From Forficula auricularia (Eukaryota > Arthropoda > Insecta > Dermaptera > Forficulidae), in contig JALMQS010000099.1 of assembly GCA_024734495.1 (NCBI GenBank), positions 71,322,249 through 71,386,248 of the forward strand: a stretch of 64,000 bases of DNA. The letters run 5' to 3'. The translations under genes and the position numbers were made by a program. Positions 6,993-64,000 of the stretch are shown in pieces (position 1 is the stretch's first letter; every line of letters starts with the position of its first letter). The notes under the pieces were generated by a model, which saw nothing but the letters and a program-made list of their open reading frames with translations, was not told the DNA's origin and ran no database searches.

Positions 6993-7033
6993 ACACCTGA
7001 TGAAGCCTAAATAAAATTGGCGAAAATCGTTGA
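6993..7033 (+). ncRNA. Hammerhead-like motif H1
   Basis: CTGATGA (6997-7003), one unpaired A, a 3-bp stem II GCC/GGC (7005-7007 / 7019-7021), GAAA (7022-7025), then ATC and a partly complementary stem I (CAC upstream, GT(T)G downstream). The order is that of a type I hammerhead ribozyme. Stems are short, so this is a weaker case than the 38, 60 and 63 kb examples. Confidence 0.4.
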
Positions 7034-7106
7034 GAATTGTTTGATTTTCTACTTTACTGTCCAAATACCTGCTAATATACTTAATTCATATACCATAAAA
7101 ATGTGT

Positions 7107-7312
7107 TTTAAAATTTTAGAAAAACAGTCCATATATCGTATATCTGATCTTTTGTTGTTTAAAATTTCGATCATTCTAAAATTAAACTTTTTTTAAAGCG
7201 AAAGAAGGAGAAGAAGAAGTAATTTAGAAAAACGGTTAATTTTAAAAATGATCGAAAATTTTAAACAATAAAATAGATTTGGCCTGTTTTTCTAAAATTT
7301 TAAGTTTATCTT
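7107..7312. repeat. Inverted repeat, arms about 80 bp
   Basis: The left arm (7107-7188) contains AAATTTTAGAAAAACAG and TTGTTTAAAATTT. The right arm (7232-7312) is its diverged reverse complement. The purine-rich loop holds GAAGGAGAAGAAGAAG. It looks like a miniature foldback element; no target duplication is resolved. Confidence 0.7.
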
Positions 7313-7567
7313 CACACTAGATACCTACGCTCTTAATATCTTACATAAATTGAAATTGTGTTTTGTTGAAATATTTTTTTTTCTCATTTAAAATTTGAAT
7401 TTTTAATCATGTTATCTATTTTTTTGTAATTAAATTGGTCTAAAATTGTAGATTAAAGGACCTATATGGCCCTACAGATACAATGTTTTAATAAATAACC
7501 CTTTATCACCAAGCGCCTACGTTTTATAAGTAACCTTCATGCCAAATTTCATGTTCTTATTCTAGAC

Positions 7568-7963
7568 CAGGGGTAGTCAACCTTTTTATACTTTTTGTCA
7601 CTCTTGTCTCTTTGTGGGTAGTAAAATTTTCTTACTGTCCCCCGGTTCCAGAGTAACTTTATTTTCCATATCTATTCTAATTTTCTAAACTTGTATAGAC
7701 GGTATTATTAAAGTTTCTCCAATATTATAACTTTTACTACTTTTTGGAATTAATTGTGAAATACCATATATGGCAGTTAATCCATCTTTCTTTTCTTTGC
7801 ATGTTGTTTCTTAAATGATGCAAGGATGTTGGACGATTTTGAAGTTTTTATTTATTTCAGCATATATTACATTAGTTTCAGTAACGGACAAAACCCCTAC
7901 CGCATACCATGAAAGCTTAAATTGCCCATTAGTGGACGGTAGAGACCAGGTTAACTACCACTG
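7568..7963. mobile_element. hAT-like miniature element
   Basis: Ends are CAGGGGTAGTCAACCT at the left and the inverse of CAGTGGTAGTTAACCTGG at the right, a hAT-type terminal repeat. The 8-bp flanks TTCTAGAC / CACTAGAG share the CTAGA core expected of a degraded hAT duplication. At 396 bp it has no transposase and is non-autonomous. Confidence 0.7.
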
Positions 7964-7966
7964 CAC

Positions 7967-7993
7967 TAGAGAAATCCTATGTGATTTCTCTAT
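7967..7993. repeat. Short hairpin beside hAT end
   Basis: TAGAGAAATC and GATTTCTCTA form a 10-bp stem around a 6-7-nt loop, immediately outside the right hAT terminus. It is possibly a footprint or part of an older inverted repeat. Confidence 0.55.
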
Positions 7994-8110
7994 TACTTAG
8001 TGGGTACTACTAGTGATGACCAAAATCCCATTCTAGACACAAAATGCTAATTTTTACAGAATAAACTACCATCGAGGTGGTTTCATCTTAGCTAGGGCTA
8101 AACTGCCCAA

Positions 8111-8431
8111 ATGGTCCAGCTACAGTCGAACTCTCCGAATGAAACCCGAACTTTCTATCAAGTCTATAATATTGTATATGAAATCTATGCATTCTTTAAA
8201 TATAATTCGTTCGTCAAATTGATTTGTTATCATTTTTCTCTGTATTTTTTTAGACATATTCAAGTGCCCAAACATTTTTGTTTCTCGTTCTCTAACTCAA
8301 AGTTCTCTTTGAATGGTTTGATTACTTGCTCGGCCACTAGTCGGCTCGGCTCATTTCTCCATCCGAAAACTGGGTCAATTGCTGAAACATTGCTAGTAAC
8401 GAGATTTAATATTGTTTTGCTGTCCAATTAA
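8111..8431 (+). other. 106-codon open frame, probably non-coding
   Basis: The frame is open for 106 codons with a somewhat more balanced C-terminal half (SKFSLNGLITCSATSRLGSF). It matches no family I recognise, has no splice or promoter context, and lies between transposon fragments. I treat it as a chance frame but record it as one of the longest non-repeat frames here. Confidence 0.2.
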
Positions 8432-8633
8432 CATGGACTAGATGTAGATAACAGGAAAGCTAACTGCTATAAACGACATATATAGGCAGGCAGCATAATA
8501 AAATCAATTTTCTACAAGTGAATGAAGCTTAAAGAGAGATAAACGCAATCAACTACAGTACAATAAAAGCCAATCAACTTCTCGAATCATCGACAAACAA
8601 ATATATTCACTAATACTAAATAAAAAAAATGAT

Positions 8634-8760
8634 AGAATTGATGGAAAGGCACCCCAAGTATAATGAAAAATAAAATTCCAAAAATAAAAAGAATTTATTG
8701 AAACTCCTCTTAAAAAATTTTTATTTTTCATTAACCCTGGGCTGCCTTTCCATCAATTCT
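8634..8760. mobile_element. Miniature inverted-repeat element
   Basis: AGAATTGATGGAAAGGCA at the left and its inverse TGCCTTTCCATCAATTCT at the right bound a 127-bp AT-rich foldback. Fragments of the same terminus occur near 28876-28905 (TTTGGGCAGCATATCAATC) and 47150-47170 (TTTGGGCTACCTTCCATCAA), so this is a dispersed family. Confidence 0.7.
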
Positions 8761-10212: not shown

Positions 10213-10311
10213 CAGGACTGTCCAACCCATGGCCCTCGGGCCGCATGCCGCCTAGCACTGCAATGATTGTGGCTCAACATTAAATCATAAACTTCTTTAA
10301 AACCAAAATTC
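10213..10311 (+). mobile_element. hAT-like 5-prime end, interrupted by LINE
   Basis: It begins CAGGACTGTCCAACCCATGG followed by GGCCCTCGGGCCGC, the hAT terminal pattern also seen complete at 17473-18344. A LINE tail interrupts it at 10312. A second, internally deleted copy of the same terminus starts at 10853 (CAGGGCTGTCCAACC). Confidence 0.65.
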
Positions 10312-13557: not shown

Positions 13558-14142
13558 ATGGTCAGTTCACTGCACAATTCAATTAACCTACTTTTTGAAA
13601 TATCTTAAATTTAAGTGTCAAAGCACTTGATTCACTAATAGTTTTTTATATTTATAATAAATTTCCCAAATAATAAAGATTAACGCCATTGAAATGACAA
13701 CATTTTTTTGGCAATTGAATAATAATTAATGTAATAATTTGCATTTCTCCACTTTGTGAAAATAATAATATAACACAATAAATAAATAAATAAAAGAAAT
13801 CAAAATTTTTCTAAATTATCCTGTTAGTTTCTGTGAGTATTGTATAGGTATATTATTTTGAGAATTATAGGATGTTTAAATAAAAATTTATAGTCACGCT
13901 TTAAGACTTGATAACTCTTTAAGATTCTCTCCTTATAGAATTTTAGCCAAATATATATTAGGAACAAATATTCGACTCGTTAACTGCTTCTAAATTTTTT
14001 AATATATGAAAATAACCCTTGAATTTTGAAGAATATCAATTACATAATCACTAAATTTTGAGAAAAAATAAATAAAAATAAAATAAATATAAATATCCTA
14101 TTTGTAAATTTCATTTTTTTTTTAATTAATGATTTTTGATTA
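13558..14142. other. AT-rich stretch without recognised feature
   Basis: No gene, element end or strong repeat is visible in about 580 bp. Confidence 0.45.
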
Positions 14143-14302
14143 AAATGAAAGTTTCTTTTTGCCGAGAGTAGTAGAATTTTTATAAATTGAAGGAGAGATT
14201 AAAAGAGATGTCTCCTGCTGGAAAAACTATAGTCTCGTCATAAATAAATTAAAAATTTATTTTTCCATCAGAAGACACACTATTTTATTGTCTCATTCAA
14301 TT
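14143..14302. mobile_element. Inverted-repeat retroelement-like unit P1 (ribozyme hairpin lost)
   Basis: The left arm carries TGAAAGTTTCTTTTTGCCGA and GTAGAATTTTTATAAATTG. The right arm is the inverse with ATCAGAAGACACAC. It is the same family as P2 and P3 but short: the centre is reduced to ACTATAGTCTCGTCATAAAT, the stem III/stem I side of the hammerhead motif, with the CTGATGA box and stem II absent. Confidence 0.65.
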
Positions 14303-14382
14303 TAATAATTTTTGGGATTTTGATTTGATGAAATTTTTGCCCTCCGTTCGATAGAAGCCGCAAACCAATTTCCTCCCTAATT

Positions 14383-14625: not shown

Positions 14626-14910
14626 TAATCCCAATTGTAGGTATTTGAGAATTCTCAATTCAGTAATAGAACATCACAATTAATTCAAAAATTCTCAATT
14701 CACTTTCAGAAAATATCAATTCAGAATTCTCGATTGAATATTAGAAAATTATTCAATGTCAATTGTATTTCAGAAAATAAACATATATAAACAACTAGCT
14801 ATACAATTAAATTGAAAGTTTCTTTTTGCCGAGACTAACAGAATTTTTATAAATTGAATGAGACAATAAAAGAGTGTGTCTTCTGCTGGAATTATAAATT
14901 TTTAATTTAT

Positions 14911-14961
14911 TTATAACGAGACTATAGTTTCGAGAGCTTTGCTCTCTTCATCAGTCTATTA
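14911..14961 (-). ncRNA. Hammerhead ribozyme-like motif H2
   Basis: On the minus strand: CTGATGA (14948-14954), an unpaired A, stem II GAGAGC/GCTCTC with an AAA loop (14932-14946), GAAA (14928-14931), the self-complementary stem III octamer ACTATAGT, then C as the cleavage nucleotide. Stem I pairs AGA-side bases with TC..TTAT across a small bulge. All core positions are present apart from the one extra nucleotide after CTGATGA. Confidence 0.6.
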
Positions 14962-14993
14962 CACTTGATGACATTAATTTCTTTGAATCAATT

Positions 14994-15048
14994 CTAATAG
15001 ACTGATGAAGAGGCAAAGCCCTCGAAACTATAGATAGTCTCGTTATAA
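14994..15048 (+). ncRNA. Hammerhead ribozyme-like motif H3
   Basis: CTGATGA (15002-15008), an extra A, stem II GAGG/CCTC (15010-15013 / 15020-15023), GAAA (15024-15027), stem III ACTA/TAGT with a TAGA loop, cleavage C at 15039, then TCGTTATA for stem I. It is the inverted partner of H2 with a 4-bp loop in stem III. Relative to H5, stem II is shortened. Confidence 0.6.
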
Positions 15049-15112
15049 ATAAATTAAAAATTTATAATTCCAGCAGAAGACACATTCTTATATTGTCTCC
15101 TTCAACTATACA

Positions 15113-15670
15113 ATTGACAATTTTCTGAAATATAATTTGGGTTTTCTGAAATACACATGGGAAATATGTAGAAATTTTTGTATATATATTTATGGTATAT
15201 ATAATAATAATATTAATTTTTATTAGCTACCATACTTCAGCTATAGATACATTATTACAATTCAATAATAATAGAATTCGCACAAATATAATACAAAAAT
15301 AACAATATTAATTAATAGGGTCGCGACACTGAATTTCGGCGTCGCGAACATTAGCCAACAATGACAATGAAACAATGAAAAATTATAATGCTCAATGGCC
15401 AAAAATTAATAATAAAAATTACTCATAATTTTACCTAATTTTTTATTCTTAAAAAATGTTTCACCTTGAACCCACACCTTTCACCTTAAAAGTTATCAAA
15501 AATTAATGATTGGTGAATTCGAGGTACATTGCACTCATGTTTAACGCGCTCCCGTAAAAGAATAATATTAATTAAAAAGATCATATAACATCATCGATAT
15601 AAATGACAACAGAATTTGTACAAATCAATACAAAAAATTTTAAGATATAAAAATAACAATATTAATCAAA
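15113..15670. other. AT-rich stretch without recognised feature
   Basis: AT-rich DNA with short duplicated phrases (ATTAAT...CAAATAAT; AAATTTT..ATATAAAAATAACAATATTAAT near 15295 and 15650). No gene or element end is seen. Confidence 0.4.
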
Positions 15671-15994: not shown

Positions 15995-17080
15995 TTTTTT
16001 TTTTTTTTTTTAATGCAATCGAATGCAAGAAGGGTGCACCAGTAAAGATGCAGTCCCTATGGATCTCGAAAGACCCTTGCATTACCGAAGAGAAGAGAAA
16101 GTTGATTAAGTGAGAGGGTGTAGACGTAGGTGTCTATGCACTCCGGTTTTGAAGGTTTGAAGATTATAGGTGCTGGGAAAGATAGAGGCTGGAAGAGAGT
16201 TCCAGTTCCTTGAAGTCATGGGGATATATGTATTGGCGAATGAAGTGGTCCGGCACTTTTCTAATTTAACCGCGAAAGAGTGTTGGGAGTCGGCAAAACG
16301 CGTGCTACGTGCAAAGCATGCTTTGGGGGAATTATTGATTTTATCTCATCAGAGCACCTGCCGTGATAGTATCTATAGAAAAGGGAAAGGGCAGAGACAT
16401 CTCTTCGATGAGCCAGCGAGTCGAGGGAGTCGGTGAGGGTAGAATCGTCAATTAGCCTGACGGCTCGTTTCTGAATTGCATCCAGGGTAGCAAGAGAGTA
16501 TTTTGAGGCCCCTCTCCACAGATGAGAGCCGTATTCGAGACAGGGGCGGATTTGGGCCTTGTAGATGGTGAGAAGTTGTGGGGGTTTGTAAAATCGCTTG
16601 GACCTGAATAAGAAGCCAATCTTCCTTGCTGCAGATTTCGCCACAGAGGAGATGTGTTCATTCCAAGACAGGTCAGATGCGACAGAGACGCCCAGCATGG
16701 ATAGGCTGTCACACATTTTTAGGGTATTCGAATCGAAGAGAATATCAGGGAAATCTTTATTTTCGCGCCTAGAAATTAGACAACATTGAGTCTTGTTTGA
16801 ATTGAAGTTAACTAAATTTTGTGAGCCCCATTTATTCAGTTTGTCTAGGTCGAGAGTAATTGAGGAGGTAACATTGATTCGATTGTTCGGGAGTGAGGGT
16901 TTACCGTGTAGAGTGCTATCGTCGGCGTAACAATGAGTGGGGTTTGCCGTTTGATCGAAAAGGTCGTTTATATAAATTAGGAAAAGTGTGGAGGAGATTA
17001 CGGAGCCTTGGGGAACACCAGAGTTTGTGGAGAACGATTCAGATGATGTTCCATCCACCACAACTTTTATACTTCGTATT
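15995..17080 (-). mobile_element. 5-prime-truncated LINE (Jockey/CR1-type), copy 2
   Basis: A T-run at 15995-16012 is the minus-strand poly(A) tail, abutting the pogo-type element. The 3-prime region is nearly identical to the tail at 10312-10616. The element extends upstream to reverse-transcriptase motif B (GVPQGS) and ends abruptly near 17080, a typical 5-prime truncation. Confidence 0.85.
16261..17080 (-). pseudogene. Reverse transcriptase C-terminal half of non-LTR LINE
   Basis: The minus frame (open to 17139, with roughly the first 20 residues from flanking DNA) contains motif B STNSGVPQGSVISSTLFLIY, the catalytic YADD at 16918-16929, then the thumb/connection region (LGVSVASDLSWNEHISSVAK; RPCLEYGSHLWRGASKYSLA; IQKRAVRLIDDSTLTDSLDS). 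This order is that of Jockey/CR1-type ORF2. The frame ends prematurely at 16261 as LPTPNTLSRLN. A frameshift near 16300 restores the expected SQHSFAVKLEKCRT continuation in another phase. Endonuclease and the first half of the RT are missing, so it is a dead copy. Confidence 0.85.
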
Positions 17081-17472
17081 AAATAAATAAGTATATAATA
17101 CCTATCATCCATCAATTCAATAAATGACAGAATCTGCATAAATCAATACAAATAATTATAAAATATAAGAATGAGACAATATTAATCAAAATAATAATCT
17201 CTTTTAAACACAAACTCCAACAATCGCTCTTTAAATTGATGGATTTCTGTCACATTCTTTATTTCTCTTGGTACTTTGTTATATTCCGACAAACCCTTAT
17301 CAAATAACGTCTTAAATTTTTTATTGGTCTTTCAAATATTTATCTTAAAATTTTCACCACTTCTCAAATCATAACAGCCTTCCACATTTGTTTATTTTAA
17401 TTTATTTTTTAGATATACAAGTGCAAAATTGTTTTTTATTTTAAAGAACATAATTAGTGAATTATAATACAT
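17081..17472. other. AT-rich flank, possible old retroelement debris
   Basis: 17200-17350 contains a moderately complex stretch (CAAACTCCAACAATCG; GGTACTTTGTTATATTCCG) with no clear frame. No confident feature. Confidence 0.3.
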
Positions 17473-19728: not shown

Positions 19729-20335
19729 ATGGAGATAGGTGTTGGTTGTGATTTAATATAATAATAAAAATTGCGTAAGATGCGAGGTAGTTTTCACAAA
19801 AAAAGAAATAAAATAAAATTTATTTTTGAATTCGATATATTTCGGGTGTCAGCCCATCTTCAGGAGTCAGAGAAAACTGAATATAAATTGAAAAAAAAAA
19901 TTTATTTTACAAATAACAATTTTTGACAATTAATATTTTTGACAAATAGAACAAGTGAGTTTTTAACCAGATGGGAAATTATACCTGGGATTATAAGAAG
20001 GAATGGAATGATATATGGAGGGTGTTGTCCTCTTAATATTAATATGCAATGTGCGAACAATAAAAGGAATTATTTATTATAATATATAATCAATAATTGT
20101 ATTTTTATTCACTTCTAATAGATTATTTAAAATATTTAAATTTTTTGAAAGGGCTAATTTAATTTCAGTGGATTCTATGAGATCCAATTTAAGCCCTTTT
20201 CTTTCGAAATGAATGGGGATAGGGTTATTATCGGGGAATATATTGAATTCAAAACTAATTTTTGTTTAATTTCTTTTTTTGTGAAACCTACCTCGCATTT
20301 TACGCAATTTTTATTATTATATGTATTTGGATTTT
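19729..20335. mobile_element. GTTTCAC-type foldback element with ribozyme motif
   Basis: Arms AAAAATTGCGTAAGATGCGA (from 19768) and its inverse at the right (TTTTACGCAATTTTTATTAT) both lead into GGTAGTTTTCAC / GTGAAACCTACC. The outer left flank GGTGTTGGTTGTGATTTAA belongs to the same family signature seen at 34.1, 38.1, 46.6, 57.9 and 62.5 kb. Inside the left arm is the hammerhead-like motif H4. There is no coding frame. Confidence 0.65.
19830..19868 (-). ncRNA. Hammerhead-like motif H4
   Basis: Minus strand: CTGAAGA (19857-19863), an extra T, stem II GGG/CCC with loop CTGACA, GAAA (19840-19843), a self-complementary ATATAT stem III, cleavage C, then GAATT. Stem I pairs CTC.AG with GA.TT imperfectly. 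It may be a weakened ribozyme. Confidence 0.45.
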
Positions 20336-20631: not shown

Positions 20632-20778
20632 ACACTTTTTTATAGGATGCTATCTTTCCTTAAATCCCAAATTTTCACATAACTCATATATATATATATT
20701 TTTTTTAACGTAATTCTTCTGCCTTTGTGTTTTCCGTTTTTAATACAGGATTTTGCATCTGTTACAATATACCATTAT

Positions 20779-21027
20779 TAAATTGAAAGTTTTTGCCGAG
20801 AGTAGCAGAATTTTTATATATTGAAGGAGACAATAAAGAGTGTGTCTTCTGCTGGAATTATAAATTTTATTTATTTATAACGAGACTATAGTTTCGGAGG
20901 GCTTTGCCCTCTTCATCAGTCTATTACAATGTATTCACAGGAATTAATTTATGAATGAAAGGTTAAAATCTTTCATGTGGTAAAATTTATAATTCCAGCA
21001 GAAGACACTATCTTTTATTGTCTCCTT
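20779..21027. mobile_element. Retroelement-like inverted repeat P3 with hammerhead and 14-bp TSD
   Basis: Same family as P2 (GCCGAGAGTAGCAGAATTTT; GTGTCTTCTGCTGGAATTAT). It is flanked by an exact 14-bp duplication CAATATACCATTAT at 20765-20778 and 21028-21041. The left arm carries the intact motif H5; the right arm keeps only the outer part. Length 249 bp, no coding. Exact long duplications of different sequence at P2 and P3 argue for retrotransposition. Confidence 0.75.
20875..20926 (-). ncRNA. Hammerhead ribozyme-like motif H5
   Basis: Minus strand: CTGATGA (20913-20919), A, stem II GAGGGC/GCCCTC closed by AAA, C, GAAA (20892-20895), stem III ACTATAGT (self-complementary), cleavage C at 20884, then TCGTTATAA. 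Here the extra A faces a C (A.C mismatch) at the base of stem II. Best preserved copy of the P family. Confidence 0.65.
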
Positions 21028-21117
21028 CAATATACCATTATCATGTATATTTTTTGAAATTCATTATTTTTCAAATTTTGCCATAATATTAATCAATTAG
21101 AAGAACATTTATAGTGG

Positions 21118-21604: not shown

Positions 21605-22760
21605 CAGTGGCGTGCAGTCCATGGATGCTGTAGATTTGGCGCATCCCTAAAATTTCAAACATTTAGAGTATTTTCATAAATTCAGGAGAATCTTTAAATT
21701 TTCTAATTATAATCCTTTATTCCAAATATTTCTATAAAAAACATTTTTTGTTTTGAAAATTATAATAATATAATAATTTATTCTCGAAATGAAATAAAAT
21801 TGTTGCATAGTTTTAAGAGGCAATAAAAATGAATGTTTTTTTCAGAAAAGGGTGCCGATAGAAGGTTTTAAGTACCTGCCTGGAATAGTTTCCAGCTCAA
21901 GCATGTCAAAGACAAGTGCAGGCGAGTTTTAGTCCAATAAAAATTGTTCTCGCTGAGGAACTATTAAAATAGGAATAATACAAAAAATAATAAATAAAGA
22001 TGATTCGATAATCTTTAGAATAATCCATTTCAAAGAACTCTCAATATATTAGATCGGGAAATAACTAAGAGTACTTATAGACAAGTCATAGCTTATTTAT
22101 AGCTATAGAATTAAGCAGAAATTGAAGATTTTCTTATAGGACAGGCTCATTCATCGTGGAATATGCACGATTTCCATCTCAGGGACTGTAGAGTTTAAAA
22201 ATCACAAGAATTAATTTCTGACTATTACCTTCACTCACACAAAGCAGTATCACAAAATATATTTAAAAAAACCTATGTTAAGTTTGAAAAATAACGTAAA
22301 CGATACCGTGCAAAAAAGCTGGAGATTAAAATAAAATTTCAATATAATAATGGGTACTCAAGTGATATTGATAGGCAGTCCAAAGAAGAAGATAATTTAC
22401 TACTATCTTTGTTATTCATAAGCCGATGTTTCGGAGGCTATTCATTCGTTCTTCAGGCCACTTGAAAGAGTGAGACAGACGGGAATATCGCAATGCGACA
22501 TTCCTCCTCTGTCTCCTCTTTCAGTAACTCGTGACAGTAATGGAGTGTATTTCATTCTCAGCAGAACGTACGGTGTAGTGAATATACTTGGCTATAGTTA
22601 TAAATCATAATCTATCTATTATAGTCTAGTAACTGCAAAACTCATCAATATCCACTGAAATAATTACACTATATCAGTCCGTTCCTAAACTACTTCAATC
22701 TTAATAAAGGGTACTTTTTTGGACATCATCCCCTGGATGAAATTTCGCCAACCGCCACTG
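21605..22760. mobile_element. Possible hAT-like composite
   Basis: It begins CAGTGGCGTGCAGTCCATGG and ends with the inverse of CAGTGGCGGTTGGCGAAATT, both hAT-style CAGTGGCG termini. The flanking octamers TAATATGT / ATACATTT match poorly, so the ends may belong to two elements. A diverged ribozyme-bearing unit (about 22330-22600) is nested inside. Confidence 0.4.
22330..22600. mobile_element. Diverged relative of the 63.6-kb ribozyme element
   Basis: Shares TGATATTGATAGGCAGTC, GAAGAAGATAATTTAC, TTTCGGAGGCTATTC, CTCTGTCTCCTCTTTCAGT and ATTTCATTCTCAGCAGAA with 63640-63840. The hammerhead region (22424-22460, minus) keeps CTGAAGA and CCTCCGAAAC, but the 5-prime side of stem II and stem III have mutated, so it is probably inactive. 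Confidence 0.65.
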
Positions 22761-27257: not shown

Positions 27258-27703
27258 CGAGGAGTGATCCGCGATTGGAAATAGGTGTACACCTCTTTGG
27301 AATTATTTTGGAAATACTTGGAAATATTTGGAAGAGCTTGGAAATATTTGGAAGTACTTGTAAATATTTGGAAGTTCTTGGAAATATTAGAAAGTACTTG
27401 GGAATATTTGGAAGTGCTTGTAAATATTTGGAAGTGCTTGGAAATATTTGGAAGTGCTTGGAAATATTTGGAAGTACTTGGAAATATTTGGAATTACTTG
27501 GAAATATTTGGAATTACTTGGAAATATTTGGAATTACTTGGAAATATTTGGAATTACTTGGAAATATTTGGAATTACTTGAAAATATTTGGAATTACTTA
27601 GAAATATTTGGAATTACTTGGAAATATTTGGAATTACTTGGAAATATTTGGAAGTACAAGTGGAAGTAGGTGTACAGCATTTTAGGTCGCGGTTCACCCC
27701 TCG
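27258..27703. mobile_element. hAT-like miniature element with internal minisatellite, copy A
   Basis: Ends CGAGGAGTGATCCGCGA and the inverse of CGAGGGGTGAACCGCGA, with subterminal AGGTGTACACC / GGTGTACAGC. The exact 8-bp duplication ATTGACGC lies at 27250-27257 and 27704-27711. Most of the interior is a 20-bp tandem array. A shorter relative with its own 8-bp duplication lies at 61465-61630. Confidence 0.85.
27299..27655 (+). repeat. 20-bp minisatellite, about 18 units
   Basis: The unit is TTGGAAATATTTGGAAGTAC, itself built of two related 10-bp halves. The first units carry GAAG variants and the last ten are almost pure GGAATTAC type. Because 20 bp is not a multiple of three and the unit lacks stops, all three frames stay open. 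Confidence 0.95.
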
Positions 27704-33780: not shown

Positions 33781-34104
33781 CACTAGAAAAATTAATATAT
33801 AATAAAAATTGACTATGCGATGGAAACTATAAATTTTTATAAGCTATATCAAAACACTTAATAAGATATTAATTTTATTAATGTTAATTCATTTCATTAT
33901 ATTTGCTTTTTTTCTCTAACCACACTTGAAAGTATCTTCATTGTTTACATGTAAAATCTTGTGTAAAAAATCAGCAAGCGCTTGAGGTGCTACTTTTATC
34001 GTGTAAGTAATACAGATATTCTCTAAATTATTTTTAATTAAAAAGAATGATGATGAAGATCAAACCTTCGAAATTATACTCTCTAACAGATAAACTATAT
34101 AATA

Positions 34105-34275
34105 TTAAGAGATAAGTGTTGGTTCTAGGTGAAACATTTTAATATAATAATAAAACTTGAGTAAGATGCGAGGTAGGTTTGGAAATATATCGAATTCAAA
34201 ACTCAATTTTGTTTTATTTCTTTTTTGTGAAACCTTACCTTGCATCTTACTCAAGTTTTATTATTATATATAATA
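34105..34275. mobile_element. GTTTCAC-type foldback element
   Basis: AAGTGTTGGTTCTAGGTGAA precedes AAACTTGAGTAAGATGCGAG and GTAGGTTT. The inverse GTGAAACCTTACCTTGCATC lies 60-80 bp later. GAAATATATCGAATTC between the arms is the stem III/stem I side of the H4 motif, but the CTGA box is deleted. Confidence 0.6.
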
Positions 34276-36042: not shown

Positions 36043-36632
36043 CAGTCGACTCTCAATAAATGGAACCTCGATAATTCAAATTTTTCGATAATTCGAACTC
36101 TTCAGCTGTTAACTTCGGTAAATCGAAAAAATGCTGTGTATTTTGATACGCTCGATAACTCGAAATCCTTTTCGTAACAAGAGGGGGAGAGAACGTTCTA
36201 TAATTCAAACTATAGGCCACTTCTCCTCTTTATAATTCGAATTTTTCGATAATTCGAACTCTTAATGTAACTTGGGTAAATGGAAAAAATGCTGTGTATT
36301 TTGATACTCTCGATAACTCGAAATCCTTTTCGTAACAAGAGGGGGAGAGAACATTCTATAGTTTGAATATGCCACTTGCCCTCTTTATAATTCGAATTTT
36401 TTCTAGCAATGTTTACTCCCCATTTTCCGCGTAAATATGGATATTTTTGTTCTTTTTTGTCGTTTTCATTATTTTTTCTTTTTTCTTGAGGCTATATATA
36501 AAATTCATATAAGCTCATCCAATTTTCAAAAATATAATAAAAACTCTTAATAATTCAAATTTTTTTCTTTCCTCTTGATAATTTGAATTTTTCTTGTAGT
36601 TTCTTGGATTTCGAATTATCGAGAGTGGACTA
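36043..36632. mobile_element. pogo/Tigger-type miniature element
   Basis: Termini CAGTCGACTCTCAATAAATG and the inverse of TAGTCCACTCTCGATAATTC are flanked by TA. The interior is dominated by GATAATTCGAA repeats and contains a tandem duplication of about 165 bp (units near 36072-36235 and 36236-36400, each with AACAAGAGGGGGAGAGAAC). No transposase. Confidence 0.8.
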
Positions 36633-38226: not shown

Positions 38227-38267
38227 GCCGAACGTTTCGTCATTTTATTTTTGACTTCTTCAGCGGC
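38227..38267 (-). ncRNA. Hammerhead ribozyme-like motif H7
   Basis: Minus strand: stem I GCCG (38264-38267), CTGAAGA (38257-38263), an extra A, stem II GTCA/TGAC, GAAA (38235-38238), stem III AC/GT without a loop, cleavage T, stem I partner CGGC (38227-38230). Both stems are perfectly paired and differ in sequence from the other families. The two-base-pair stem III implies dimeric action, as reported for Penelope-type hammerheads. Confidence 0.7.
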
Positions 38268-38559: not shown

Positions 38560-39356
38560 ACAATACTTAAGAAATAAACTGCAACGGATCGTTGCTAAAT
38601 TTTATCCAATGTCATTTGAAATATTAATATGTTTATTCCTTTATTATTAATCAGATATCACTTGCTATTTGCTGTCCATGTTGACTTAAATTCAAAAAGA
38701 TCCATTATCATCTAATACTCAAGGATTAATCATTCTACATTGGATTTTAAACGTTTCGGTTATTATTGTTAACCATTGCTGAAGACATGGAGGAATCTAC
38801 TTAAAATCAAAAATAGCCATTGATTCTCGTCTAATATTTGAGGAATAACAATTCTACATTGGATTTTTGACGTTTCGGTTATTATTGGTAAAGCTGAAGA
38901 CATTGAGGAATCGACTTAAAATCAAAAATAGCCATTGATTCTCATCTAATACTTGAGGAATAACAATACTACATTGGATTTTTGACGTTTAGGTTATTAT
39001 TGGTAACCATTGCTGAAGACATGGAGAAATGGACTTAAAATCAAAAATAGCCATCGATTCTCATACTTAAGGAATAACGTTATTGCATTCCATTTTTGAT
39101 GTTTTGACTATTAATGGCAACCACTACTGAAAATGGAAAAATCGACTTAAAATCAAAAAGATTAAATTCTTTTATGGTAACAACTCAAATTGATATAAAA
39201 TAAAGACTTAAGAAAAAATATGTAAAAAATTTTTAAAAAAGGACTTTCGATGGTGTTACTTTCGGGCCTGGTGAGGAGGGGAAAGGGTTCAGAGAGAGCA
39301 GGGGACGAAGCTCTTTGGTCAACAAGAGGACCGCGGAAGGCGGACTTAGCAGCTAG
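38560..39356 (+). mobile_element. Helitron, non-autonomous, with minisatellite (5-prime end unresolved)
   Basis: The 3-prime end has a CCGC-GGAAG-GCGG hairpin (39331-39343) nine bases before CTAG (39353-39356) followed by T, the Helitron signature. CTCTTTGGTCAACAAGAGG upstream matches the ends at 45.4 and 48.4 kb. A body block (AACTGCAACGGATCGTTGCT) is shared with the Helitron at 47224-48372. No Rep/helicase coding. Confidence 0.75.
38690..39150 (+). repeat. 115-120-bp minisatellite, 4 units
   Basis: The anchor ACGTTT.GGTTATTATTGGT recurs at about 38750, 38870, 38984 and 39099. Each unit contains TGCTGAAGACATGGAGGAAT, CGACTTAAAATCAAAAATAG and ATTCTCATCTAATACTTGAG. Two to three units of the same repeat are in the Helitron at 47.7-47.97 kb. 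Confidence 0.9.
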
Positions 39357-41215: not shown

Positions 41216-41453
41216 AATGAAAGTTAAAATATTTCTAATTAAAAAGACTGATCTTATTGATAAAAGTCAAACCTTGGAAACTATAGACTCTACAAAATGA
41301 ATTATATAATGTAAATATTTATAATCGTCATAATAATATAAATTCAAAGAATTGAGCATCTTTTTTTGAAAATTAGTTGGAATTTTTTTCAAAGATTAAC
41401 TTTTCAAGAATTTAAATTTTAAGGTAAAAAATCTGAGATATTAGTAGAAAATA

Positions 41454-43984: not shown

Positions 43985-44765
43985 TGAAACAAATTAAATA
44001 ATTAGAACTCAAAAATAAAATAAAATCCACTAAAAGGTATAAAATAATTATCTAGCCGATGGAATTTTTACATGAAATCACTTTTTGAAGTCGGTGCCAA
44101 ACATATCTTTTATGAATCCCACTCGACGGATCTTAGTAGGTTTGGCGTTTAATAAAGACAACATCGTTTAAGCTCGCTTATATACTTTGTTTGGCACCGA
44201 CTTCAAAAGTGATTTCATGTAACTAATTTTGTTGTTTAGTTGAAACTAAATAAGATAATTATTTTATACATTTTAGTGCATTTTATTTTTATTTTTGAGT
44301 TCTTATTATTTTATTTGTTGCATTTAATTTTTTTGAAGTCGGTTTCATTTTTTTTTATAAAAATTATTTTTTATTTTTCTCTTTTTTGGGAGGTTTAATG
44401 GTGACTTGATATAATACCTTGCATGCATCTCGTAAGAGAAAGCGTCGGGCGAATGAATCAGAAAATGATAATAAAATTCAATTCATGAATAGAGAAATTC
44501 TCTCGAAACGTTTCCGGATCTTAAATGAATGTTTTAAGATTTTTTTTTTATAAAAGATTTTATTTATTATAATTTCGATTATTTGCTCATAAAAATTGGA
44601 GATTTACGTTATTTCGTCATTGATCATATCATCAGAACTTGACCAAATTAATATGGGACCATCCCTAAGGTACCCTCTTCCCAATAAAAAAGAATCATCG
44701 AAATCGGTCCACATGGCAAAAAGGTCTCGCTGAACATACATAAAAATGAATAAATTATAAAATAG
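43985..44765. repeat. Foldback element family C, copy 2 (inverted)
   Basis: Palindromic arms (43985-44100 and 44195-44345) contain AAAATAAAATCCACTAAAAG and TTTTTGAAGTCGGTGCCAAA. The following body (44350-44765) is the reverse complement of 1605-2160, including CTTGCATGCATCTCGTAAGA and GGGCGAATGAATCAGAAAAT. Confirms family C as a mobile or amplified unit. Confidence 0.8.
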
Positions 44766-47223: not shown

Positions 47224-48372
47224 TCTATATAATAAAAATGAATTTCTGTTTCTTTGTAAGCGCAGATCTCTCAAATGCCTGGACCGATTTGGCTATTTTT
47301 TTAAATATTCGTAATAGTCCAATTCAGGTTAAAAAGTAAAAAAAAATTAGAAAAGTTGCCCGGAAAATTGGAAAATTCAGGAAAAACTAAAAAAAAAATC
47401 AGGTTAGCCAACATAGCTTGCCAGACAATAAAAGAACTAAACGAGCAAAAAAACAAGTGTTGGCGGCCCTGTTTGTAAGATTTTTGAGTGTCATTCATTC
47501 TCAATAGTTCTAACCACATTATCGTTGAAGAAGAATTTAATAATGCAACAAAGATTTAAAAAAACTATCTATTTTTTTAAAGTACATTTAAAAACAAAAA
47601 TTAAAAAAATAAACTGCAACGGATCGTTGCTAAACTTTATCCAAATTCATTTGAAATATTAATATGTTTATTTCTTTATTATTAATCAGATATCACTTGC
47701 AATTTGCAGTTCATGTTGACTTTAATTCAAAAATAATGATCGATTCTCTTTTAACAGTCGAGGAATAACCATTCTACATTCGATTTTTGACGTTTCGGTT
47801 TTTATTGGTAGCCATTGCTGAAGACATGGAGGAATCGACTTAAAATCAAAAATAACGATCGATTCTTATCTAATACTAGAGGAATAACCTTATTGCATTC
47901 CATTTTTGATGTTTTGACTATTAATGGCAACCTCTACTGAAAACGTGGAAGAATCGACTTAAAATCAAAAAGACTAAATTCTTTTATGATAAACAACTCA
48001 AGCTTGAGAATAAGATAATTTTTTATAAATAGATTGTATATACTTTTGTGTCTAGCAAAATGAATAATAATTGTAATTTTCAAGTCTTCTTATCTATAAT
48101 AATACCTACATATAATATAACTTTTTTTTATTTTCCCCTTAATGATAACAAGTGGATTTTTAATACATTTTAAATATTTGTTTCAACTTATTTGTTATGA
48201 GTGTATATTGCAGTTAAATAGAATCTTAAATTATATCTATTTAAGACTTTATAATAAAACTTAACTAATATTTATTCTCTGTAACTAATAAAACATCAAT
48301 AACGCAGCCACTTGGGGGTCAGAAGCCCCTGGTTAGCAAAAGAGCCCGCCTTCAGGCGGGCCTTGAAGCTAG
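47224..48372 (+). mobile_element. Helitron, non-autonomous, complete
   Basis: 5-prime end TCTATATAATAAAAATGAAT after host A, with CTGGACCGATTTGGCTA nearby. The 3-prime end has the perfect stem GCCCGCC-TTCA-GGCGGGC (48344-48361) seven bases before CTAG (48369-48372), then host T. It sits between A and T as Helitrons do, and no terminal inverted repeats or target duplication are seen. Contains minisatellite units shared with 38690-39150. No Rep/helicase frame, 1,149 bp. Confidence 0.85.
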
Positions 48373-57384: not shown

Positions 57385-57560
57385 TAAGAAAATACAAATC
57401 TTTAAAAAAACAATCAAGAACACGTTTATCCCAAACCAAACGTTTCGGGAGAATTTCTCCCTTTTTCTTGGGAAATTTGTAAAAAAAAGGTTGCTTCCTC
57501 TCTTTTGGTTTCGAATAAACGTGTTGATTGTTTTTTAAAGATTTGTATTTTTTAATATTT
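57385..57560. repeat. Inverted repeat with GAAAC hairpin
   Basis: ACAAATCTTTAAAAAAACAA with AACACGTTTATCCCAAACC is mirrored by CGAATAAACGTGTTGATTGT. Minus strand GGGAGAAATTCTCCC-GAAACGTTTGG is the stem II plus GAAAC half of a hammerhead, but the CTGANGA box is replaced by CAAGAAA; probably a dead ribozyme. Confidence 0.6.
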
Positions 57561-57599
57561 AATACACAATCAAAAAATAATTTTTTGCTTGATTGTTAG

Positions 57600-57900
57600 T
57601 ATTGGAAGAGAATAATTAATAAAGTAAAGGGAATGTAGTTTCACATTGAATGAATTAAAACTCAAATAGGTTTATACAAACTCAGTATATTTCGAATTAT
57701 TAATCCATCATCAGGAGCTTAGAGATTAAAAACATTAATCTGTAAACTCATGATGATCGACTAATAATCCCAAATATATTGAGTTGGTATAAACCTCTTT
57801 GAGTTTTAATTCATTCACTGTGAAACTAACTCCCTTTACTTGATTAATTAATATGATGTTTCACCTAAAACCTATACCACTTTCCCTAAAAAAAATTGGA
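57600..57900. mobile_element. GTTTCAC-type foldback element with ribozyme motif H9
   Basis: AAGTAAAGGGAATGTAGTTT followed by CACATTGAATGAATTAAAAC is mirrored near 57800-57850, which continues to ATGTTTCACCTAAAACCTAT and ACCACTTTCCC, the family terminus. Same layout as the 19.7-kb element, with different outer arms. Confidence 0.7.
57680..57719 (-). ncRNA. Hammerhead-like motif H9
   Basis: Minus strand: stem I AAGCTC, CTGATGA (57708-57714), an extra T, stem II GGATT/AATTC (one G.T pair), GAAA (57690-57693), TATAC, T, then GAGTTT pairing with AAGCTC (one G.T). Position 16.1 is C instead of U, so cleavage is unlikely in this copy. Confidence 0.5.
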
Positions 57901-58296
57901 AGAGAATCTTCCAGAATGCATTTTTTGAAATCTTCCAATATCCATAAAAACAAATTGACTGAGTTAGTGTTTTTTATTTAAGATTCTTCCAAAACCCAAA
58001 TGCCTAAATCTTCACCCTTTGAAACTGATCGAGAAATACTAGTATGTTTAAAAAGGGCTGCGGATACAATAATTATCTATTTCCCTTTACTATAAGCTTA
58101 GACATTGAAAATAAAAGTCCAGACTTGTTTAAGACTATTAGAAATTTATTTCTTAACATCTCATATTCTAAAAATGGTCCTTTCCCTTACGAATTTGGAC
58201 CAAAACGATACTCATTATAGAGAGAATATTCAATTGAACTTCATTAAACTTCAGACTTTTAAAGTAAAGGCGGCTTGCCACATTTGATGAATTTAA

Positions 58297-59690: not shown

Positions 59691-59694
59691 TAAG

Positions 59695-60030: not shown

Positions 60031-60152
60031 GAAGTGTATGGTAAAGTCAAGTGGATGGCCACAAAAATTACAAATTACAATGTAATTTTTGAGATTGTGT
60101 TGCTTTGTGATGAGAAGTTTTGATTGTATATTTTGTAATGATTGAAATGTTT

Positions 60153-60194
60153 TAGGCTGATGATGACATATTTGTAAATGTCGAAACGTTCCTG
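60153..60194 (+). ncRNA. Hammerhead ribozyme-like motif H10
   Basis: Stem I TAGG (60153-60156), CTGATGA (60157-60163), an extra T, stem II GACAT/ATGTC (60165-60169 / 60178-60182), GAAA (60183-60186), stem III AC/GT, cleavage T at 60190, stem I partner CCTG (60191-60194, one G.T). A complete architecture on the plus strand with stem sequences unlike the other families. Flanked by ACAATAAAATAAAC and an inverted GATGTGGCCAT block. Confidence 0.7.
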
Positions 60195-60249
60195 GGTGAC
60201 AATAAAATAAACAAAAATAAAAGATACAAAATGTGTTTTTTGTCAAAAA

Positions 60250-61264
60250 AGAATAAAACTAACACCTATTTAAAAGAGAATTTGTATCCTCAAAAAATTT
60301 ACATATATATAGATATATATATATAAATTAAACTCAAAATTAATAAAGAAATTAAAAAATATTAAATTGAAATGAATACCTATATCAGATTGAATATTTC
60401 TCTTTTAATATTTTTTATTATTAATTCACCGAAACTGCGCAAATACGTTTCCTTCCAATTTTCTTTTCAAATCAATCACAAAAGAGATCCTTGTCATAAT
60501 AGCATTTGATTGGTTGAAATTGTTAATATATAAGTAGAGGACATTATTCAGTGCTGCTATCTTTAGCTGTCCTCGAAACGCACAAGGGTTTAGATTTTAT
60601 TATTAAATCAATGAAATTACAAACCTCAATGATTATTTGAAGCCAAAAGCGTCAATTAAGAAAAGATTACTAGCCATTTTAGGTAAATGGATTATAGGAA
60701 TTATTAAACCAATTTTTGAATTGAATAAATAATTAAACGGATGCTCACGTGTTCTCCGGTTATCGATTGAATGTTCTGCGCAGCTTTCTTTCTTTTAATG
60801 GAACGAGAGAGACCATGGCTGGATGATGGATGGATGAATGGCTTGCCATATGGTATGTATCAACACTAATTACACACTAATATTATTAACATTTAATCAA
60901 ATTTTTGAGCTACGTGTGTTTCTCTATTTAAATTTTTTGTTTTTATATTTCAAACCCGGATTAGTCAAAAGCCACGTTTTCCAACATGCGAATTAAGGTT
61001 ATGTTAAGCTCAAAATTTCCAACCCCTTTGAATAAGCCCTGATTTAGTCAAAGTGGATAAAAGTGTTTTCGAATTGTTAAAAAAAAAATACTTTTTTTAC
61101 TTTATCTTATAATTTATTCTTTTTTTTTACTTCATCTCTAAAATGTCCTCGATCCTGGACCACATTTTGCCTAGTACCTGTTGATGGCTTAATTTTTCTT
61201 TCTATTTTTTTTTTAATCTTTCTAATTATATATTTGGATAAGTAATAATTTGTTATAAAGGCCA
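60250..61264. other. AT-rich stretch, partly complex
   Basis: 60480-60600 has a TATA-like TTAATATATAAGTAGAGG preceded by GATTGGTTG, superficially promoter-like. 60740-60870 is more complex (GTTCTCCGGTTATCGATTG; ATGGATGGATGAATGG). No open frame supports a gene. Confidence 0.3.
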
Positions 61265-61269
61265 TAGAT

Positions 61270-62795
61270 ATAAGAATACTGAATCGGCCCCCGAAAGATA
61301 ATTTAATGATTCTTAGGGGATATGTAGGTACTAATAAAATAATAAGATCCTGAAAGTTTCGGATATCTTTTGAGAAAGGGCAAAATATGTAAAAAACAGA
61401 AAAAAAATTTCTCAGTATTTACAGAACCGATCGATCTAAATTTTTAATATGTTTTAGGGACTGACGAGGGGTGAACCGCAACCTAAAATCGTGTACACCT
61501 ACATACACTTTCACATTCATTTCCAAGTAGAACACAATAGATGACAATAGATTATCTAATGAATTCCAAAGTAATTCCAAATAATTCCAAAGACGGTGTT
61601 CACCTAATTCAAATCGTGGTTCACCCCTTGGAGACTGATAATAGCTTCTAGGAAAAAAATGTAAGATTTATAGGTTAATTCGATCATTGAAAAAAAAAAT
61701 TGTTTTTCTTTTAATTTCAATTTTTGACCATGATACAATTTTGGCACAATTATAAAACTATTTTTTTAAACGTTATATTTCCCTATATAGGTATTACCTT
61801 TTAAAATTTTGAAAAAAGGTACGCCATAGTAGAAAAAAAACAAAAAACAATTTTTTTTATGTTTTAAGCTTTCATTGCATTATTTAAAACAAAAAAAAAT
61901 GGTTTTTAATTTTTTTCTATTATGGCGTACCTTTTTTCAAAATTTTAAAAGGTAATACTATTATAGGGAAATAAAAGATTGATTGAAAAAATAGCTTTAT
62001 AATCGTGGCAAAATTGTATCATGGTCTAAAATTGAAATTCAAAGAAGAACAATTTTTTTTTCAAGGATCGAATTTACTTATAAAAAAAATTGGTTTTTAT
62101 TTTTTCTACTATGGTCTACCTTTTTTCAAAATTTGATAAGGTACTAGTATTATAAGGAAATAGATTAGGTTCGAAAAAAATAGTTTCATATTTGTGCCAA
62201 AATTGTATCATGGTTAAAAATAGAAATTAACAAAAAAGAATTTGTTTTTCAAGGATATAATTAACCTATGTAGCTCATCATTTTTGATAAAGTAAAAAAA
62301 ATTTTTCAAAAATTTTTTTGGAACTTTTTCAAAAAAATTTTAAATATAAAATACTAGGTAGGTTTGACATAAATAAAAGATCAGATGCTTGTTTAGAACG
62401 ACTCAATATATTATATATATACTATATATATTTTTTTATGTAAAACCTACCAAGTATTTTATATTTAAAAAAAAATTTGAAAAAGTTCCAAAAAATATTT
62501 TTCAAAAAATTTTCTTTACTTTATTTAATATGTTTCACCAAGAATCTACACCATTCTCCCTTAACAAAATCATAATTTTTGGTCGAGAAGCTATTATCAG
62601 TCGCTAAAAGATATTAAAAATTTAGATCAATCGGTTCTGTCAATCCTGAGATTTTTTTTTCTGTTTTTTACATATTTTGCTTTTTCTCAAAAGAGATCTG
62701 AAACTTTCAGGTTCTTATTATTTTATTAGTACCTACATATCCCTTAAGTATCATTAAATTATCTTTCCGGGGCCGATTAAGTATGTTCATACCCC
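61270..62795. repeat. Large inverted repeat (about 1.5 kb) hosting a hAT-like insertion
   Basis: The left arm (GAATCGGCCCCCGAAAGATA; GGGATATGTAGGTACTAATA; ACCGATCGATCTAAATTTTT) is mirrored at 62580-62795. The next layer (61690-61850, minus; 61895-62085 and 62085-62270, plus) is a three-copy unit of about 190 bp with TGATACAATTTTGGCACAAT and GGTACGCCATAGTAG. The centre-right includes a GTTTCAC-type block (62345-62460) and a family terminus TTTCACCAAGAATCTACACC (62529-62548). Confidence 0.75.
61465..61630. mobile_element. hAT-like miniature element, copy B
   Basis: Termini CGAGGGGTGAACCGCAACC and the inverse of CAAGGGGTGAACCACGATT, with GTGTACACCTAC / AGGTGAACACC. Flanks GGGACTGA (61457-61464) and GAGACTGA (61631-61638) form an 8-bp duplication. 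The opposite arm of the surrounding inverted repeat (62597-62604) has this octamer only once, an empty site. It keeps two or three AATTCCAAA units instead of the 18-unit array of copy A. Confidence 0.85.
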
Positions 62796-62848
62796 TATGC
62801 CCTTTTATGATGACTTTACTAAAGATTTTATATTTTTTTTAAATAATA

Positions 62849-62967
62849 TACCGGGTGAATTTTTTATCTTGAGACAGTCTTTTAACTCAAAAACAGTGCA
62901 TTATATGTAAAAAGTTTCAAAAAGCTTCAAGTAAAAGCTTATTTATATCAGGGGGGAAATTAAACTA
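62849..62967. mobile_element. Family A foldback copy 5, left part
   Basis: ATATACCGGGTGAATTTTTT, ATCTTGAGACAGTC, AACTCAAAAACAGTGCATT. Continues at 63438 after a LINE insertion. Confidence 0.75.
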
Positions 62968-62969
62968 CT

Positions 62970-63116
62970 CGTACTGATATCGCCACCAGATCCTTTGTCG
63001 TCAGCTCGGCTCGGTTGTGGAATACATTGCCATTAAATATCCGAACATCGCTTTCAACATCATCTTTTCATCGCTCACTCAGGGTGCATCTTCTCGGGGG
63101 GGCTGGGTTGGAGTAA
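62970..63116 (+). pseudogene. LINE reverse transcriptase C-terminal fragment
   Basis: The frame reads RTDIATRSFVVSSARLWNTL, then PLNIRTSLSTSSFHRSLRVH and LLGGAGLE, then TAA at 63114-63116. The (F/V)..(A/S)ARLWN.LP..IR......FK..L..(Y/H)L pattern is the usual end of CR1/Jockey-type ORF2. The natural stop appears intact; everything upstream is lost by 5-prime truncation. Confidence 0.8.
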
Positions 63117-63184
63117 TGTGTCACTGGACTATTCGCCTGCTTGTGCTGACTCTAGGTTGCTCACTGTGGGTTGGGAGAGTCTTG

Positions 63185-63390
63185 CTCATTTAAATCTTAC
63201 TATATACCTGTATTCTTTCTGTTTAACATTTAAATCTTACTATATATTTGTATATCTGTATTCTTTCTGTTTCTCATTTAAATGTCACTATATGTATGTA
63301 TTCTTTCTGTTTTTTCATTTAAATATTATATATGTTCTGTTTGCTTACTTAAATGTTACTATTTGTATATATTCTTTCTGTTTCTGCTCT
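63185..63390 (+). repeat. About 40-bp minisatellite in LINE 3-prime UTR, 5 units
   Basis: CATTTAAATCTTACTATATA plus CTGTATTCTTTCTGTTT recurs five times with small changes, keeping (A/T)TTTAAAT and TTCTTTCTGTTT as anchors. The plus-strand frame across it is incidental. Confidence 0.85.
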
Positions 63391-63437
63391 ACGAGGTAGC
63401 CACCTCATAGCATTGTTTTAAATAAATAAATAAACTA

Positions 63438-63640
63438 AGCTATTATTTGTCGACCTCGAACAAGCTTTCAGGAGTATTTTGAGGTCAAGTTCTGTTTTTT
63501 AAATAGAAACCTTATATGTTTCTGTACATATTTTGAATCTACAAAAAAAACTGAACAATTTTTATTAGGAACTATTTTTTATACGACGTCAAATAAAAAA
63601 AATTTAATCAATTAGATCTCAAAAAAAATTCTTAATTAAG
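63438..63640. mobile_element. Family A foldback copy 5, right part of left arm
   Basis: GCTATTATTTGTCGACCTCG, GTTCTGTTTTTTAAATAGAA, ATACGACGTCAAATAAA, AGATCTCAAAAAAAATTCTT follow the order of copy 1's left arm and then stop. Centre and right arm are absent; the ribozyme element begins here. Confidence 0.75.
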
Positions 63641-63700
63641 TGGATATTGATGAGGCAGTCAAAAAAAGAAGAAGATAATTTACACTATCTTTTTATTCAT

Positions 63701-63744
63701 AAAACCGACGTTTCGGAGGCTATTCCCTCCTTCTTCAGGGTTTT
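63701..63744 (-). ncRNA. Hammerhead ribozyme-like motif H11
   Basis: Minus strand: stem I AAAACC (63739-63744), CTGAAGA (63732-63738), an extra A, stem II GGAGG/CCTCC (63726-63730 / 63715-63719), GAAA (63711-63714), stem III AC/GT without loop, cleavage C at 63707, stem I partner GGTTTT (63701-63706). Six perfect base pairs in stem I and five in stem II make this the best-paired copy in the window. Confidence 0.75.
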
Positions 63745-63966
63745 GAAAAGTCAGTGAAGGAAATCCAATGCGGCATTCCCCTCTGTCTCCTCTTTCAGTG
63801 GCAGTAACAATAATATCTTGTATTTCATTCTCAGCAGAATTATAATGTAATAATCTGTAATGTAATAATAATTCTGCTGAGAATGAAATACAAGATATTA
63901 TTGTTACTGTCACTGAAAGAGGAGACAGAGGGGAATGCCGCATTGGATTTCCTTCACTGACTTTTC

Positions 63967-64000
63967 AAAACCCTGAAGAAGGAGGGAATAGCCTCCGAAA
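63967..64000 (+). ncRNA. Hammerhead motif H11b, truncated by window edge
   Basis: AAAACC, CTGAAGA (63973-63979), A, GGAGG...CCTCC, GAAA at 63997-64000. The cleavage site and second strand of stem I would lie just past the end of the window. Mirror image of H11. Confidence 0.6.

Follow-up and report, generated by a model that had tools for sequence, protein, structure and literature searches.

What are the hammerhead-like motifs in a 64,000-nt stretch of the Forficula auricularia genome (contig JALMQS010000099.1, positions 71,322,249 to 71,386,248; hereafter the window), which elements carry them, and how did these elements come to lie as they do? An earlier note, made from the letters of the window, had described about ten motifs with covarying stems and proposed an unusually dense cluster of related ribozyme-bearing retroelements. 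The motif carriers are almost certainly Penelope-like elements (PLEs), present as remnants of their pseudo-long terminal repeats (pLTRs). Taken as a whole, the observations are probably best explained by PLE hammerheads whose head-to-head pairs are single integration events, primed from both ends of the target. PLEs are the third large class of eukaryotic retroelements, and their mode of integration is unsettled.

The bare core pattern CTGANGA-N6..36-GAAA matched the window 19 times, against a mean of 4.55 and a maximum of 10 in shuffled sequence (0 of 100 shuffles reached 19). Since the shuffles averaged 4.55 matches, several of the 19 are due to chance, and several had no helices at all. A raw core match at 36083, without hammerhead helices, lies inside a 158-bp tandem repeat of two copies (36071–36401). 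A structural scan (helix I at least 2 bp, helix II at least 3 bp, helix III at least 2 bp) retained six motifs, at 63.7, 60.2, 38.2, 19.8, 15.0 and 14.9 kb, compared with a mean of 0.12 and a maximum of 1 in 150 shuffles. With helix I raised to at least 4 bp, three motifs remained (63.7, 60.2 and 38.2 kb) versus 0.03 in shuffles. The copy at 20.9 kb failed the scan and has one extra base before GAAA; it is 93–95% identical to copies adjoining PLE coding remnants. A plus-strand copy at 63973 is completed past the window end. Decayed copies were present at 7.0, 22.4 and 57.7 kb, and genome families elsewhere align to the first two (75% and 82%, respectively). The helix sequences quoted in that note are present, with G-T wobbles at 57.7 kb.

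The window motifs are real, minimal type I hammerheads, with the type I core CUGANGA/GAAA and helix II in between. All six motifs of the structural scan and the genomic copies share two traits: CTGANGA is followed by an additional A or T before helix II, and helix III is a loopless perfect palindrome (ACGT, ACTATAGT or ATATAT); exceptions among the listed genomic copies were a few matches without helix I. One viroid hammerhead has an extra nucleotide at this position. The Rfam models, at gathering and at permissive thresholds (E up to 10), reported no hammerhead in the window because these forms are without a closed helix III, and standard annotation would overlook this motif class. A loopless, self-complementary helix III can only pair between two copies, so cleavage would need two RNA copies. 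When two hammerheads were cofolded, the lowest-energy dimers were plain duplexes, and the double hammerhead was not the lowest-energy form. In monomer folds, helices I and II formed as drawn for the 63.7-kb motif, and alternative pairings were obtained for the other three tested.

Helices I and II change in compensating fashion between families. The first three helix-II pairs were kept in 46 of 61 distinct motifs, which came from the first 100 listed ACGT-class genome matches and were chosen without a helix requirement; when the partners were re-dealt among motifs 2000 times, the mean was 14.3 and the maximum 25. Helix I reached at least 2 bp in 55 of 59 distinct motifs from the window and the examined loci (re-dealt mean 17.2, maximum 28), and all 14 family representatives, picked by hand, kept three helix-II pairs (re-dealt mean 3.2, maximum 10). 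Kinship between the motifs was ignored in all three comparisons. Pairing is thus preserved across different sequences, as the earlier note had claimed. As to its further claim of selection on RNA structure, such selection would act, if at all, on active source elements; the individual copies are decaying, namely those at 7.0, 22.4 and 57.7 kb as well as the 15.0-kb right arm.

The window's own assembly (1,061,512,967 bases, 845 contigs) was searched for two exact patterns. The ACGT-class pattern CTGANGAW-N8..26-CGAAACGT had 52,159 matches (26,190 + 25,969) and its reversed-pattern control 17 (11 + 6); the ACTATAGT-class pattern CTGANGAW-N6..24-CGAAACTATAGTC had 27,878 (13,799 + 14,079) and its control none (0 + 0). 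With the reversed pattern approximating shuffled sequence, the counts thus far exceed chance, the outcome on which the earlier note had made its reading depend. The two classes together amount to about 75 exact-pattern motifs per Mb, or 4.8 expected per 64 kb. The window contains five exact matches (38.2, 60.2, 63.7, 14.9 and 20.9 kb), with a sixth completed just outside, so it is the genome that is dense in these motifs and not the window; an unusually dense cluster, as proposed, is not confirmed. With other descriptors, more than 6,000 type I motifs have been counted in a coral and 126,247 in axolotl (PMC7229834, accessible part).

The assignment of the carriers rests on coding sequence beside the motifs. 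A search of the assembly for the GIY-YIG domain gave 3,423 candidates, and all 150 that were scored matched. At locus L029, an 858-aa frame matching RVT_1 (1.6e-16) and GIY-YIG (8e-6) has a ACTATAGT hammerhead on either side, at 104 nt upstream and at 198 nt downstream; the units stand 2909 nt apart as tandem pLTRs. Relatives of this frame (112 reported) include proteins of Parnassius, Diabrotica, Bemisia, Folsomia and Hydra. A second family shows 28–31% identity to the frame in the matched part and has an ACGT-class hammerhead about 730–760 nt after the GIY-YIG match at five of six distinct places; helix II of the motif is shortened in the remaining one (L023). Reverse transcriptase (RT) and GIY-YIG in one frame beside the motif were found for the ACTATAGT class and for one ACGT family. 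Two copies in the window (14.9 and 20.9 kb) share 90–95% identity with L024/L022, both of which have PLE coding remnants. The earlier note was right in suggesting ribozyme-bearing retroelements of several families. The GGAGG family (63.7 kb) presumably also belongs to the PLEs, since it has the hammerhead, the tail and an insertion architecture in common with them, and the other families for which no frame was found probably have the same origin. The window holds short, 5'-truncated, mostly old insertions of several PLE families, with the motifs in their 3'-terminal (pLTR) regions. Identical GIY-YIG match statistics were observed for L015 and L016 (on different contigs) and for L013 and L014 (on the same contig), which may reflect duplication or assembly redundancy.

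The chief architecture, which the earlier note had overlooked, is that the motifs form outward-facing pairs inside single insertions. Orientation was counted for neighbours within 600 bp among the 100 matches listed first for either class, and the head-to-head frequency refers to these listings. Minus-then-plus neighbours, with outward-facing 3' ends, made up 19 of 23 in the ACGT class and 20 of 20 in the ACTATAGT class. Same-strand neighbours were 1 of 23 and 0 of 20 among the matches listed, and no tandem arrangement of the retrozyme kind was seen. A set of 20 short pairs was examined, comprising 18 of the 19 ACGT-class minus/plus pairs and two window pairs, with hand-trimmed arm ends; the pair C3:540088/540380, which joins two different families, was left out. 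Arms of such pairs were 81–98% identical. The outer ends lay about 55–79 or 99–131 nt from the motif in 20 of 21 short pairs, and 30 nt from it in L001. In 15 of 20, a direct repeat of 8–19 bp touched one arm directly and stood 27–52 nt beyond the other, the intervening sequence constituting a tail. A shared repeat of at least 10 bp was likewise found in 15 of 20, compared with 10.8% of 380 cross-pair controls. Duplications also flank the paired window insertions at 14.9, 20.9, 57.7 and 63.7 kb (Table 1). At L051, a second head-to-head pair with a 12-bp duplication lies just beyond the first.

Copies with PLE coding sequence, picked for long frames or opposed GIY-YIG matches, showed the same design. 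Mapped on the L029 unit, one outer end fell at 134–143 and the other at 176–189 in 19 of 20 head-to-head insertions (L015, L017, the small insert of L018, L020, L021, L030, L031, L034, L035, L037, L039, L045, L048, L066, L067, L068, L069, L071 and L072). Exactly one outer tail was present in 19 of these 20, for all of which both outer ends could be assigned. Not among them were loci with unassignable ends or one arm (L001, L029, L032, L036, L040–L043, L046, L070), L047 (the same place as L015) and L016 (the L015 structure at another place); L010, L022, L024, L027 and L028 were outside the end scoring. Target-site duplications of at least 8 bp (8–13 bp) were found in 12 of 15 PLE insertions (cross-pair control 4.3%), and L066, L069, L070 and L072 had repeats of 10–16 bp, for which there is no cross-pair control. 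At the middle junctions, the arms overlapped by 2–16 nt in 10 of 16 insertions and were separated by 1–15 nt of filler in 6 (no control). At L066, a single 13-bp target-site duplication encloses four alternating PLE segments, which form a compound insertion. Inverted head-to-head pLTRs, a one-sided tail and a short target-site duplication thus occur together, as in PLEs, and there was no nesting. The best explanation is that each head-to-head pair is one insertion event.

How could one event produce two opposed arms with a single tail? We consider two-sided initiation of complementary DNA (cDNA) synthesis reasonably likely. The GIY-YIG endonuclease would make staggered cuts leaving 3' overhangs of about 8–19 nt, and each overhang would prime reverse transcription of element RNA near the RNA 3' end. 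One cDNA would start at the outer site, with the tail, and the other about 30–50 nt further in, without it; both would pass through the hammerhead, end at their own 5' points and be joined in the middle. In published work with a purified PLE protein, both strands of the target were cleaved and extended, and two RT start sites bracket the tail (PMC11167929, accessible part).

The strongest competitor is cis self-priming, in which the cDNA from one target end snaps back and is copied into the second arm; it extends a self-priming idea that was framed with an antisense template (PMC3846280, accessible part). Antisense or cis fold-back was our initial reading of the palindromes and was dropped for two-sided initiation after comparison of the arm lengths. 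Because a fold-back second arm copies part of the first, a tail would be possible on the longer arm only. The tail arm was the longer one in eight PLE insertions (L015, L018, L034, L037, L039, L048, L067, L069), the shorter one in eight (L017, L021, L030, L031, L035, L045, L071, L072) and about equal in two (L020, L068). This count was made without L033 and L066, the latter being a compound counted for outer tails only. In six short copies, assigned by eye against L058 rather than from BLAST coordinates, the tail arm was longer in three and shorter in three. The tail thus sits on the shorter arm in half of the 16 unequal PLE insertions and in half of the six short copies, although the copy of a tail-less arm cannot gain one. 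Since tails occur equally on longer and shorter arms, the two cDNAs seem to have been started separately, one per target end. Both outer ends also lie at discrete sites, which weighs against fold-back. In favour of fold-back are the near-perfect palindromes and the fact that some turn-arounds contain short native inverted repeats (by eye; CAC-AGTA-GTG in L054 is one), and we regard it as unlikely overall.

Both arms belonged to the same subfamily in all 23 pairs, versus 36% if they were independent, and 18 of 19 close pairs of the ACGT class were concordant by eye. The cDNAs therefore share a source, be it one RNA copied twice, a pair of copies on a single tandem RNA or two RNAs of the same locus. 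The arms of L072 resembled different PLE subfamilies, but their overlap is too conserved to be diagnostic.

Several observations weigh against two-sided initiation, or against the uniformity of the pairs. The identity of subfamily in both arms fits fold-back or one shared RNA as well. Central gaps measure only 0–18 nt in 13 of the 21 short pairs though arm length varies, so that truncations are matched as fold-back predicts; such gaps fit fold-back more naturally, unless both enzymes reached the same RNA end. L033 has a tail at both ends. No clear duplication was seen in the short pairs L002A, L061 and L063, and among the PLE insertions a target-site duplication was not found at L018 (small insert), L033, L036, L067, L068 and L071. 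L064, with an 11-bp repeat, carries about 38 nt of extra sequence at each side; L051a shows a repeat of 10 bp and no tail. Single-armed copies also occur (L070 with a 10-bp duplication, and those at 60.2 and 22.4 kb).

The role of PLE hammerheads has been called 'still a mystery' (PMC7761336, accessible part). In motif-bearing insertions, the copied RNA runs through the motif to 134–189 nt after its first base, so the hammerhead was uncleaved there when copied. The likely biochemical role of the ribozyme would be to cleave upstream copies in tandem RNAs, in the two-copy, dimer form. A bolder idea, to which we give little credence, is that helix III pairs two element RNAs, or two copies within a tandem RNA, and that these form a complex of two-fold symmetry with a dimer of the PLE protein, each RNA being copied from one target end. 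If true, the dimer hammerhead and the head-to-head insertion would be two faces of one integration complex. Against it, hammerhead mutants insert normally in vitro (PMC11167929), and subfamilies with the same helix III do not mix within an insertion, the 23 pairs above all being concordant.

Retrozymes, small non-autonomous tandem elements spreading via circular RNA made by their hammerheads, share with the present elements type I hammerheads, AT-rich non-coding repeats and a high copy number, and retrozyme-like elements have been described in many animals (PMC7229834). They are a very improbable explanation here: same-strand neighbours are rare among the matches listed, direct tandem monomers of 150–450 bp were not found, Tandem Repeats Finder detected no array of these hammerhead units in the window, and the PLE copies run through the motif and end 136–189 nt past its start, so that the RNA was uncleaved at that point. 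Miniature inverted-repeat transposable elements or foldback DNA transposons with a hammerhead in each terminal inverted repeat would account for the palindromic shape, the terminal inverted repeats and the target-site duplications, but are scarcely credible given duplications that vary from 8 to 19 bp instead of having a fixed length, asymmetric ends with one tail, variable centres, single-armed copies, and PLE copies of the same architecture that contain RT/GIY-YIG coding sequence.

Hammerheads in the pLTRs of PLEs and dispersed minimal type I hammerheads have already been described (PMC7761336), as have inverted head-to-head pLTRs with palindromic junctions, one tail and 8–10-bp duplications, for which self-priming was favoured (PMC3846280). 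As far as the accessible parts of PMC3846280, PMC7761336 and PMC11167929 extend, the elements share with Penelope/Poseidon-type PLEs the RT and GIY-YIG frame, tandem pLTR units, inverted head-to-head pLTRs, an optional tail on one inverted pLTR, short duplications, AT-rich targets and a minimal hammerhead without a closed helix III. They differ in that the tail, merely optional in those published cases, is on exactly one side in nearly all scored insertions, that duplications extend to 19 bp, that the longer arm is as often tail-less as tailed, and that the genome is saturated with short pairs. Metazoan non-LTR retrozymes (PMC7229834) are similar in being non-coding, AT-rich and dispersed with a type I hammerhead, but form short direct tandems. 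The newt, axolotl and viroid dimer hammerheads (PMC7229834, PMC6155905, both in accessible part) likewise have a weak or self-complementary helix III needing two copies, whereas here helix III is loopless, the motif sits in PLE ends and the extra A or T is present. A literature search, with most subscription journals outside its reach, found nothing on the one-tail rule or the arm-length test. To the known hammerheads in PLEs and head-to-head pLTRs, the present analysis adds their scale, a one-tail rule and a test by arm length.

Table 1. Hammerhead motifs and PLE-type insertions in the window (positions within the 64,000-nt stretch).
Feature	Position	Strand	Remarks
Decayed single-arm copy, related to L065	6988..7082	+	75% identical; hammerhead core 6997-7025
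Small head-to-head copy without hammerhead core	14139..14304		Same family as the 6988..7082 copy
Head-to-head PLE-type insertion, ACTATAGT class	14809..15105		Tail on left arm; 90% identical to L024
Target-site duplications CTATACAATT of the 14.9-kb insertion	14799..14808 (left), 15106..15115 (right)		10 bp
Hammerhead, helix II GAGAGC/GCTCTC, helix III ACTATAGT	14918..14956	-
Mirror hammerhead	15000..15041	+	Indels alter helix II and helix III
Hammerhead, helix II GGG/CCC, helix III ATATAT	19832..19865	-	Inner end of inverted repeat 19756-19841 / 20237-20322
Head-to-head PLE-type insertion	20779..21027		Arms unequal; right arm without hammerhead
Target-site duplications CAATATACCATTAT of the 20.9-kb insertion	20765..20778 (left), 21028..21041 (right)		14 bp
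Hammerhead core, helix II GAGGGC/GCCCTC	20892..20919	-	One extra C before GAAA
Decayed single-arm copy, GGAGG family	22360..22566	-	Core at 22429-22456, helix II broken
ACTATAGT-class PLE end fragment	34029..34115	+	No intact core; 79-82%
Hammerhead, GTCA family, helix I GCCG/CGGC, helix III ACGT	38227..38267	-
Diverged fragment of ACTATAGT-class PLE end	41226..41332	+	About 71-77%
Decayed head-to-head insertion	57614..57894		Tail on right; arms 57613-57729 / 57735-57850, 86%
Target-site duplications ATTGGAAGAGAAT of the 57.7-kb insertion	57601..57613 (left), 57895..57907 (right)		13 bp
Decayed hammerhead core, helix II GGATT/AATTC	57690..57714	-	G-T wobbles
Single-arm copy, GACAT family	60098..60300	+	85% identity to L055; target-site duplication not found
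Hammerhead, helix I 6 bp, helix II 5 bp, helix III ACGT	60151..60196	+
Head-to-head (palindromic) PLE-type insertion, GGAGG family	63637..64000		Continues to ~64121 past window; tail on right
Arms of the 63.7-kb insertion	63634-63846 / 63865-64080		97% identical
Left target-site duplication TTCTTAAT of the 63.7-kb insertion	63629..63636		8 bp; right copy past window, after tail
Hammerhead, helix I 6 bp, helix II 5 bp, helix III ACGT	63701..63744	-	Cleavage triplet GTC
Mirror hammerhead of the right arm (63.7-kb insertion)	63973..64000	+	Completed past window end

A palindromic repeat at 57390–57558 reads CCCGAAACGTTTGGG on the minus strand after a degenerate core and has a 10-bp flanking repeat, TTAATACACA; it may represent a further decayed pair of PLE type. 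Of stop-to-stop frames reaching 150 aa, the window has only one, a reverse transcriptase open stretch of 293 aa at 16264–17142 (minus strand; RVT_1 3.3e-11), probably the remnant of a long interspersed nuclear element. The window further contains a minisatellite at 27297–27657 (20-bp unit, 18 copies, 92% matches), a related repeat unit of 115–119 bp in two arrays (38704–39159 and 47718–47971), and inverted copies of about 390 bp of another dispersed repeat (1773–2164 and 44352–44742; 85–88%), with relatives in several examined loci.

With about 80,000 exact-pattern hammerheads in this genome, many of them in dated pairs with clear ends and duplications, the integration of PLEs becomes a matter of counting: thousands of insertions can be scored for tail side, arm length, junction and the subfamily to which each arm belongs. 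Even the small sample examined speaks against simple cis self-priming and in favour of a start at both target ends.

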